Shown here: positions 16,088 to 18,739 of the stretch, piece by piece | How positions within the stretch are numbered: the first letter of the stretch is position 1 | How the letters are laid out: each line of letters starts with the position of its first letter | Source of the DNA: an archaeon | GTDB lineage: Archaea; Hydrothermarchaeota; Hydrothermarchaeia; Hydrothermarchaeales; BMS3B | Assembly (NCBI GenBank): GCA_026989875.1 | Contig: JALSIP010000010.1 | Location: forward strand, 1-33,808 | Direction of reading: 5' to 3' | Length of the DNA: 33,808 bases | The notes under the pieces: model-generated | What the model was told of the DNA's origin: nothing | The model's input: only the letters and a program-made list of their open reading frames with translations | Databases searched by the model: none | Made by a program: the position numbers and the translations under genes

Positions 16088-17514
16088 TTCTCAGCCAGGA
16101 TGAGATGAGAGCGCTGGACATCAACGCCAGGTACTTAGGCGTGGCAGAGGAGACGCTGATGGAGAATGCCGGCAGGGCTGTAGCCGAGGAGGTGCTGAGG
16201 AGGTTCGGTACAGAAGCTAAGGCGGTGGTGCTGTGCGGGCACGGCAACAACGGCGGCGACGGGCTGGTGGCTGCCAGGTACCTGGCGGAGGCTGGCATGG
16301 AGGTGAGGGTGTACCTGGTGAGAGAGCCTGCCTCAGAGCTCACCGCGAGAATGCTGGCAGAGCTCAGGAGCACTGGCATGGTGAAGGTGCTGAAGTACAG
16401 GGGGCGGCTGAGCGAGGCGGATGTGCTGGTGGATGCGCTGCTGGGCACGGGAGTGAGGGGTGAGGTGAGGGAGCCCTACAGAAGCGTCATAGCCGAGGTG
16501 AACCGCTTTGCCGGCTACGTGGTTAGTGTTGACCTGCCCTCTGGCATGAACGAGAGCGGTGGCGGATACAGGGTTGAGCCTGACCTGGTGGTAACGCTGC
16601 ACGCCATGAAGCGCGGGCTGGAGAATCTGCCCTGCGTTGTCAGGGACATCGGAATCCCGGAGGAGGCTGGGAGGTACGTTGGACCTGGAGATGTGGCGGT
16701 TAGCGTGTGGAAGAGGAGCAGGGACTCCCACAAGGGCGAGAATGGCAGAGTTCTCATCGTGGGCGGCAGCACGGAATACCACGGTGCCCCGGTGCTTGCG
16801 GCTCTTGGAGCTATGAGGGCTGGTGCCGACCTGGTGCTGGTGGCAGTGCCTGAGGCGATTGAGGTGCCGGTGAGAGCAGCCTCCCCCGAGATTATACTGC
16901 GCCCGTATTCGGGGCAGAGGCTGGAGGCTGGGGCGGTGGATGCGCTGCTGGAGCTGGCTGAGAGCGCCGACTGCGTGCTCCTCGGTCCGGGGCTGGGGGA
17001 GCATGAGAAGACCCTTGATGCCGTGAGGCACATGCTAAGGGAGCTTGAGGTCCCCTGCGTGCTTGATGCCTCTGCACTTGCGGCTGCTCGGGGTGCAGCG
17101 CTGCCGGAGGGCAGCGTGCTAACACCGCATGCCGGGGAGTTCAGGAAAATCACCGGCACGAGTCTGCCGCGTGAGGTAGGGCTGCGGGCTGAAGCGGTGC
17201 AGCGGCTCGCCCGCAGGCGCAGAGCGGTGGTGCTGCTGAAGGGCAGAGTGGATGTCATCGCCTCACCCGGGAGGGTGAAGCTGAACCGCACCGGCAGCCC
17301 GGGGATGACGAAGGGCGGCACAGGGGATGTGCTGGCGGGAGTGGTGGCAAGCTTTATAGCTCAGGGATGCGGAAGTTTTGAGGCGGCATGCTGCGCAGCC
17401 TTCCTGTGCGGTCTTGCGGGAGAGACCCTTGAGCGGCGGCGGGGCTACGGATTCTCGGCAGCAGAGCTTGCGGAGGCGCTGCCGGAGGCGGTGCTGAGCT
17501 CGCTGGAGTTCTGA
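16084..17514 (+). CDS. nnr: Bifunctional NAD(P)H-hydrate epimerase / dehydratase
   Basis: N-terminal GHGNNGGDGLVAARYL and VDLPSGM; C-terminal LTPHAGEF and GSPGMTKGGTGDVLAGVVA. ATGA overlap with the S2P gene. Confidence 0.95.
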   Translation: MILSQDEMRALDINARYLGVAEETLMENAGRAVAEEVLRRFGTEAKAVVLCGHGNNGGDGLVAARYLAEAGMEVRVYLVREPASELTARMLAELRSTGMVKVLKYRGRLSEADVLVDALLGTGVRGEVREPYRSVIAEVNRFAGYVVSVDLPSGMNESGGGYRVEPDLVVTLHAMKRGLENLPCVVRDIGIPEEAGRYVGPGDVAVSVWKRSRDSHKGENGRVLIVGGSTEYHGAPVLAALGAMRAGADLVLVAVPEAIEVPVRAASPEIILRPYSGQRLEAGAVDALLELAESADCVLLGPGLGEHEKTLDAVRHMLRELEVPCVLDASALAAARGAALPEGSVLTPHAGEFRKITGTSLPREVGLRAEAVQRLARRRRAVVLLKGRVDVIASPGRVKLNRTGSPGMTKGGTGDVLAGVVASFIAQGCGSFEAACCAAFLCGLAGETLERRRGYGFSAAELAEALPEAVLSSLEF

Positions 17515-17984
17515 TGGTACCTCTGAAACACCTGCTTAGCGTAGCTCAGGAAGTCATCCTTGGGCACGTAGCCCATCACCCTCTCAAGCACCTCCTCCCG
17601 GGGGGTTATGAATATCATCGCCGGCGGATACTGCACCCCGTATTTTGAGCTCACGCGCTTGTCGGTGTCAACGTTCACAGCCACCAGCACAAAGTTCTGC
17701 CTGAGCAGCGCATTTACCTGCGGGTCAGGGAAAACCTCGCTCTCCAGCTTCCTGCAGAACTTGCACCAGGTAGCCCAGAAGTAGAGCATCACCGGCTTGT
17801 TCTGCTCCTCCGCAAGCCTGAGCCCTCTGTCGTAGGAGTTGTACCACACTAAGCTGCCAACGTAGGTGTGCTCCTCATCGCTTATTATCGGAGCGCTCTT
17901 GGAGGATAGGTAGGCGAAAACTGCCAGAGCAACTATCGCCCCTAAGGTAATGGCGCTCTTTGTCCTCACTCGCTCACCATGCAT
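17445..17984 (-). CDS. Membrane-anchored thioredoxin-fold protein
   Basis: N-terminal TM, then NKPVMLYFWATWCKFCRKLESEVFPDPQV (CxxC), YPPAMIFITPREEVLERVMGYV. Confidence 0.88.
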   Translation of the reverse strand: MHGERVRTKSAITLGAIVALAVFAYLSSKSAPIISDEEHTYVGSLVWYNSYDRGLRLAEEQNKPVMLYFWATWCKFCRKLESEVFPDPQVNALLRQNFVLVAVNVDTDKRVSSKYGVQYPPAMIFITPREEVLERVMGYVPKDDFLSYAKQVFQRYHQNSSELSTASGSASASSAAENP

Positions 17985-18009: not shown

Positions 18010-18249
18010 TTAACGCAGCACCGCCTCGCCCCTGTAGCCCCTTTCCCTGAGCTCACGGATGTACATGAGCTCCTCATAAAACTCTACGGTCTGCCTGGCA
18101 AGGGCAACCTTCTTCAGGGCTCTGCTGAGCAGCGCAGATACCCGGGGCTGGGTTATGCCCATGGCTTCTGCTATCTCCACCTGAGAGTAGCCCAGCAGGT
18201 GATAGCGCAGCACCTGCGCCTGCCTGCCGGTGAGCACACCCACGCTCAT
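18010..18249 (-). CDS. Tfx-like HTH DNA-binding protein (short)
   Basis: 79 aa: LTGRQAQVLRYHLLGYSQVEIAEAMGITQPRVSALLSRALKKV, a Tfx-type HTH. TATA TTTAAAAG ~27 nt before the ATG suggests a leaderless mRNA. Confidence 0.85.
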   Translation of the reverse strand: MSVGVLTGRQAQVLRYHLLGYSQVEIAEAMGITQPRVSALLSRALKKVALARQTVEFYEELMYIRELRERGYRGEAVLR

Positions 18250-18266
18250 AATATGCAGGTGTTATG
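18247..18266. promoter_or_regulatory. Operator-like dyad, copy 1: CATAATATGCAGGTGTTATG
   Basis: CATAA-N10-TTATG inverted repeat spanning the start codon/TSS of the Tfx-like gene. 18/20 identical to copy 2. Confidence 0.6.
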
Positions 18267-18293
18267 TGGGGCTTTTAAAGGTTTCGCAAAAAC

Positions 18294-18301
18294 TTTATAT
18301 A
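18294..18301 (+). promoter_or_regulatory. TATA box for the 120-aa gene
   Basis: TTTATATA preceded by an A-rich BRE-like tract (GCAAAAAC). Confidence 0.6.
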
Positions 18302-18344
18302 CAGGGACGTGATAGGTAGGTGTGGCGGACAGGTAAATCCGCCG

Positions 18345-18364
18345 CATAATATAAAGGTGTTATG
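18345..18364. promoter_or_regulatory. Operator-like dyad, copy 2: CATAATATAAAGGTGTTATG
   Basis: Same CATAA-N10-TTATG dyad as 18247-18266, in the leader of the 120-aa gene. Confidence 0.6.
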
Positions 18365-18376
18365 AGGTGAGAGAGA

Positions 18377-18739
18377 ATGGCAAATCCGCTTGAGGCACCG
18401 TGGCTCAGTTCCAGAAAATTCCCCGGAAAGTACGAGGAGGAGCTGACCGACGATGACATACGCGAGTGGGAGGAGAAGGAGAGGCAGGGCTTAATCGTGG
18501 ACGACGTCCCGGGCGGCACTGACGTGAGCATACCCATAAGAGTGGACTACATGAACGGCGACTACCACAAAGCCTACGAGATTCTGCAGAAGAACAAGAT
18601 ACCCATAAAGTACAAGACCGTCATGACGGTTCCGCCCTTCCACGCGACGATTCACGTGTTCCCGCCTGACGGCGTCAAGGCGATGAAGCTCCTCAGGGAA
18701 GCGGGCATTACGATGTACAAGGTGAAGCCGGTGTTCTGA
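18377..18739 (+). CDS. Uncharacterised 120-aa protein
   Basis: MANPLEAPWLSSRKFPGKYEEELTDDDIREWEEKERQ...ITMYKVKPVF. Own TATA box, GAGGTGAGAG SD, and a terminator. Confidence 0.85.
   Translation: MANPLEAPWLSSRKFPGKYEEELTDDDIREWEEKERQGLIVDDVPGGTDVSIPIRVDYMNGDYHKAYEILQKNKIPIKYKTVMTVPPFHATIHVFPPDGVKAMKLLREAGITMYKVKPVF

Follow-up and report, generated by a model that had tools for sequence, protein, structure and literature searches.

In the intergenic region between two divergent genes of a heat-loving hydrothermarchaeon, one encoding a 79-aa Tfx-like regulator and the other a 120-aa protein, we identified two copies of a palindrome that is conserved throughout the class and probably serves as the operator of the small regulator. 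Based on comparative sequence analysis, the 79-aa protein would be a two-site dimeric autorepressor that also represses the 120-aa gene, whose product would be an accessory protein of a molybdenum or tungsten (Mo/W) enzyme; we give this reading a probability of about 0.75. The window, i.e., the whole analysed stretch of 33,808 nt, belongs to the 'Candidatus Pyrohabitans' family of the Hydrothermarchaeota, according to the names on the contigs of its nearest relatives. Its genome is referred to here as G000. As far as their titles show, the genomes of the class are metagenome assemblies, so that every absence call depends on their completeness.

Two dyads between the divergent genes

The original prediction had described two 20-bp dyads of the form CATAA-N10-TTATG, and both were found in place, identical at 18 of 20 positions, in the same orientation and 98 bp apart from start to start (Table 1). 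Based on 100 dinucleotide shuffles, 0 dyad matches are expected in the window. A genome-wide scan, which had been proposed as a check, returned just these two copies in the 1.44-Mb genome with up to 3 mismatches allowed, and the reversed control pattern gave none.

Table 1. Features of the divergent 79-aa/120-aa region (positions refer to the window)
Feature	Position	Strand	Description
79-aa Tfx-like regulator	18010..18249	-	sigma70-region-4-like HTH and long stem helix, no TFX_C domain
Operator 1 (putative)	18247..18266	none	CATAATATGCAGGTGTTATG; outer half-site holds the start codon of the 79-aa gene
Probable TATA box, 79-aa gene	18272..18279	-	TTTAAAAG on the - strand; 26 bp from ATG
TATA box, 120-aa gene	18294..18301	+	TTTATATA; 47 bp upstream of operator 2; aligns among members of the family
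Operator 2 (putative)	18345..18364	none	CATAATATAAAGGTGTTATG; 12 nt ahead of the start codon of the 120-aa gene, directly 5' of its Shine-Dalgarno
Shine-Dalgarno AGGTGA, 120-aa gene	18365..18370	+	GAGGTGA is the same in most relatives
120-aa target protein	18377..18739	+	predicted ACT-like b-a-b-b-a-b core with N-terminal extension; no Pfam/NCBIfam family

Some details of the prediction had to be adjusted. The dyad is present as described, but the conserved element is wider, consisting of 7-bp half-sites (YATAAYA and TRTTATR) around a free 6-bp core. Copy 1, said to lie between the TATA box and the start codon of the 79-aa gene, is indeed near the start, but the ATG itself falls inside the half-site, as the CAT at 18247–18249 is its reverse complement; a start codon inside the half-site was also seen in G002, G003, G005, G009, and G016. 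The second TATA-like sequence reported within copy 2, AATATAAAG, is probably incidental, since part of it falls in the variable core and relatives do not retain it (G002, e.g., has CATAATAAGAAGG); the conserved TATA box sits 47 bp upstream of operator 2.

Conservation of the sites across Hydrothermarchaeia

The divergent 79-aa/120-aa pair was detected in 11 genomes from several families (G000, G002–G007, G009, G010, G012, and G016). Loss of the motif from orthologous intergenic regions had been set beforehand as refuting the operator prediction; the motif is kept in all 11 pairs. Dyad 1 overlaps the 79-aa start codon or lies within about 20 bp of it in every case, and dyad 2 ends 11–13 nt before the 120-aa start in ten of the pairs, the distance in G010 being 5 or 11 nt depending on the choice of start. 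The 22 sites resulted in the consensus YATAAYA-N6-TRTTATR, with ATAAY invariant in 44 of 44 half-sites. Using leave-one-genus-out matrices, the two sites ranked first and second in every one of these intergenic regions, and two sites as good appeared in none of 2000 shuffles. A family-wide alignment revealed 22 invariant columns out of 41 in the sites versus 19 out of 135 outside, where conservation is poor except for the TATA boxes. Within genera the contrast is weak (32/40 versus 67/97 in G000/G002), conservation at this distance reflecting in part recent ancestry, so that the argument rests on the distant comparisons, in which the intergenic regions measure between 133 and 628 bp.

In most genomes the strict motif occurs twice or less often, almost only at the two sites flanking the pair. 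Relaxing it to 2 mismatches in the window's own genome yielded 11 further sites, equal to the 11 of the reversed control and thus no excess that would point to a wider regulon, and no strict site was found at the MopB (molybdopterin oxidoreductase) operons. Since the strict motif is nearly confined to the pair and the relaxed one does not exceed its control, the regulon visible through the motif consists of the 79-aa and 120-aa genes. Extra strict sites beside a tRNA-like gene in G012, upstream of metG in G005 (absent from its sister genome G003), and near contig ends in G020 were treated as chance occurrences. One strict match was also seen in G017 (62% complete, without a 120-aa gene), directly upstream of a gene for a permease-like membrane protein (L091 1185–1204, G017:C161).

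In G020 and G021, the two genes are unlinked, the regulator gene being located elsewhere, inside or against other genes; the 120-aa promoter still has a strict upstream site together with a degenerate one before the Shine-Dalgarno. Both sites at the 120-aa promoter are degenerate in G022. In G020–G022 no operator accompanies the unlinked regulator gene, so that the putative autoregulation is not universal and comes with linkage. Since G020 and G021 keep the strict site of the 120-aa gene, the latter appears to be the primary, conserved target.

Genomes lacking the short regulator also lack the 120-aa gene and, with the single exception of G017, the strict motif. Regulator and target are both present in 14 genomes and both absent from seven, with two discordant genomes (Fisher p 2.5e-4, the lineages not being independent); the discordant ones are 57% and 82% complete, and G008 has a contig end at the expected place of the target. 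This co-occurrence, seen even where the genes are unlinked, supports the proposal that the dyads would be operators of the Tfx-like gene.

The 79-aa Tfx-like regulator

The assignment of the 79-aa protein to the Tfx type stood with respect to its HTH, which is of the Tfx/EnfR type, but not in the strict sense, as the C-terminal domain is absent. PF04545 matched with 37.4 bits (cut-off 24.1), and EnfR with an E value of 8.7e-07 over residues 4–62. A match to PF14601 (TFX_C) was not obtained for the 79-aa protein, nor did it rank among the 25 families that the 15 orthologs matched most, and TIGR00721 (tfx) scored 35.9 bits, below its cut-off of 60.25. Since both of these signatures define the Tfx family, the protein is on this basis classed as Tfx-like and not as Tfx proper. 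By comparison, the three full-length Tfx paralogs in the same genome matched PF14601 with 57.4–75.2 bits.

The 15 short proteins form one clade, which an unrooted tree built on a short region places opposite full-length Tfx across a single branch (100/100), and among 394 archaeal genomes only short Hydrothermarchaeia proteins scored above 122 bits, the next best hit being a full-length Tfx with 59 bits. The AF2 monomer (pLDDT 92) displays helices at residues 8–18, 23–30, and 34–69, followed by a short tail, and the protein has no sensor or ligand-binding domain.

Promoter architecture and putative mode of action

Regulators of archaea that bind downstream of the TATA box, at or after the start point, generally repress. 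Both operators lie downstream of the TATA boxes, which at either promoter would be the position of a repressor. From the TATA centre to operator 2 the distance is 30–50 bp in most genomes, and operator 2 would be located roughly 5–25 bp downstream of the expected 120-aa transcription start. At the 79-aa gene, the arrangement is consistent with a leaderless transcript that would start inside operator 1. The small headless repressor of the Tfx/EnfR type, probably a homodimer, would bind YATAAYA-N6-TRTTATR twice in the intergenic region; at operator 1 it would cover its own transcription start and start codon, leading to self-repression, and at operator 2, shortly after the point where the 120-aa transcript is expected to begin, it would block RNA polymerase. 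We infer in this model the binding by the 79-aa protein, its dimerisation, repression and not activation, and the start points.

The original prediction had also suggested that the two sites act together through a DNA loop between bound dimers. Two sites per region are indeed present in every genome, and the 120-aa promoter of G020–G022, flanked by two sites without an adjoining regulator gene, would be compatible with a weak cooperative version. However, the spacing takes values of 98, 101, 106, 119, 120, 229, 434, and 588 bp and follows no helical phase (Rayleigh p 0.07–0.17 for all 11 regions, 0.29–0.68 with one per genus), so that looping is not supported, nor does the model need it; in addition, the predicted dimer shows no tetramerisation domain and each site has its own promoter to serve, all of which makes a loop improbable. 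We judge it similarly improbable that another regulator, e.g., a full-length Tfx paralog as found in G000, binds the sites and that the 79-aa gene is just one of the targets. HTH-only proteins often need partners, but many archaea encode a full-length Tfx, including genomes that lack the motif; it is the short regulator whose distribution coincides with that of motif and target, and a site at the start of a regulator's own gene is the usual signature of autoregulation.

Since the HTH is closest to sigma70 region 4, the short protein could instead activate, for instance by recruiting TFB or RNA polymerase in the manner of this sigma region; the sites, however, follow the TATA boxes and coincide with or lie beyond the expected start point, and EnfR is a repressor (PMC10570040), which makes this very unlikely. 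We attach hardly any weight to the idea that the repeat, as an RNA hairpin in the 5' leader of the 120-aa transcript, controls translation. Pairing of the half-sites is possible, and they are located just before the Shine-Dalgarno, but transcription of the leaderless 79-aa gene would start within the element and truncate it, a search against Rfam gave no match, and the occurrence of the same palindrome on both promoters points to DNA.

The 120-aa protein and its putative role

For the 120-aa protein, neither a Pfam ACT match nor a significant match to PDB at the sequence level was obtained. The AF2 model (pLDDT 84) predicts a b-a-b-b-a-b core, and most of the top PDB matches in a fold search were ACT-domain proteins (best E 4e-3, query-normalised TM below 0.5), which we interpret with moderate confidence as an ACT-like fold with an N-terminal extension. 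Shorter relatives were identified in Altiarchaeales, Nitrospirae, another bacterium, and an Anaerolineales bin, in clusters with genes for a molybdopterin oxidoreductase, 4Fe-4S proteins, and a TorD-type chaperone, one of them also with an FdhD-like protein (by eye); the gene combinations vary, as several of the contigs are short.

A hydrothermarchaeal ortholog of the oxidoreductase, encoded in a MopB-FeS-small-FeS-TorD operon, is present in 12 of the 15 genomes with the 120-aa gene (p 0.017 for the co-occurrence, shared ancestry being ignored). Between G000 and G004, the 120-aa protein and MopB are 96% and 97% identical, whereas TorD reaches 59% and the regulator 68%. Because of the location of its relatives in oxidoreductase clusters, the co-occurrence with MopB, and this equal and unusual conservation, the 120-aa protein is likely an accessory protein of a molybdopterin (Mo/W) oxidoreductase of the DMSO-reductase superfamily. 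Among characterised enzymes, MopB is closest to formate dehydrogenases, thiosulfate reductase, and acetylene hydratase.

The two genes might also form a closed sensor loop, in which the headless Tfx binds DNA and the 120-aa protein is a ligand-sensing partner or antirepressor reporting the state of the Mo/W enzyme. We regard this as possible but unlikely; if true, this branch would provide an answer to the question of what lifts repression by a Tfx-type protein, which the authors of the EnfR study left open.

Neighbouring genes

The MopB operon (MopB of about 830 aa, FeS protein, small protein of 77–105 aa, FeS protein, TorD) was seen at L126 7116–12632 (G000:C9) and at L127, L130, L132, and L133; MobA- and MoeA-like genes (by eye) often lie divergent to it, and its MopB is 97% identical between genera in which TorD reaches 59%. 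An in-frame TGA in the MopB match of G012 was considered as a selenocysteine codon and dismissed, the frame being open through the conserved protein to a normal end.

A gene for a conserved protein of ~230 aa without Pfam family lies convergent beside the short Tfx-like gene at L078 9330–10016, L082 9172–9870, and L084 9075–9764; most relatives have this neighbour, and the window has a thioredoxin-like gene there (17445–17984). G010 and G012 carry a small stand-alone ATP-cone gene between regulator and 120-aa gene (L087 1623–1898; L084 10091–10375), and a nearby gene in G003 and G005 encodes an N-terminus that looks like ribonucleotide reductase (by eye). Genes for a CbbQ/NorQ-type ATPase and a VWA protein are located near the pair in Hydrothermarchaeum (L084 5698–8895), and a protein similar to these neighbours adjoins the 120-aa relative on the Nitrospirae contig L059.

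Comparison with known systems

To our knowledge, an operator is known for few Tfx-type regulators, that of EnfR having reportedly been published in 2023, and we know of no cultivated member of the class Hydrothermarchaeia. For this class, comparative genomics provides an exact predicted operator, a regulon of one or two genes, and, with 79 aa, a minimal protein, a system small enough for tests in vitro or in a surrogate host. The 120-aa family, undescribed and very strongly conserved, goes with an uncharacterised molybdopterin oxidoreductase from Hydrothermarchaeota to bacteria.

The divergent layout with a palindrome at each promoter is shared with divergent autorepressor pairs of the TetR/Lrp type, but those regulators belong to a different HTH family and the 79-aa protein has no ligand-binding domain. 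Tfx of Methanothermobacter thermautotrophicus (MTH0916) binds downstream of the promoter of fmdECB, an operon for a Mo enzyme (PMC3087415). Like the 79-aa protein, it is a small regulator with a sigma-region-4-like HTH encoded next to the bound genes; however, it is a full-length Tfx whose gene directly precedes the target operon, whereas the 79-aa gene is divergent and the targets differ. In G016, genes similar to formylmethanofuran dehydrogenase subunits (by eye) are convergent to the 120-aa gene (L054 1200–3239), a likeness to the formylmethanofuran dehydrogenase operon near which MTH0916 binds that is possibly a coincidence.

Among solved structures, EnfR (TON_1525) of Thermococcus onnurineus, a member of the Tfx family (PDB 8hno), came closest to the 79-aa protein in both sequence and fold (38% identity over 61 aligned columns), and the HTH-flag and the long stem helix are shared. 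EnfR forms dimers, mainly via its flag and stem helices (residues 1–62), recognises a pseudo-palindrome, and in reporters acts as a repressor by roadblock or occlusion (PMC10570040). In all 15 short regulators, its dimer-core residues Ala52 and Thr55 have invariant counterparts, A51 and T54, and hydrophobic positions are mostly kept as well. In contrast, the DNA-contacting residues Arg35, Arg43, and Arg44 are not kept (position 34 is always Gln, 42 is Ser, Lys, or Arg, and 43 varies), so that the specificity of EnfR is not transferable to the short regulator; EnfR also has another target (codh cluster), another site (minimal AATCTTTTTGTTTACATT), and a C-terminal note-head domain that is missing from the 79-aa protein. 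By analogy, the 79-aa protein would work like EnfR without its head.
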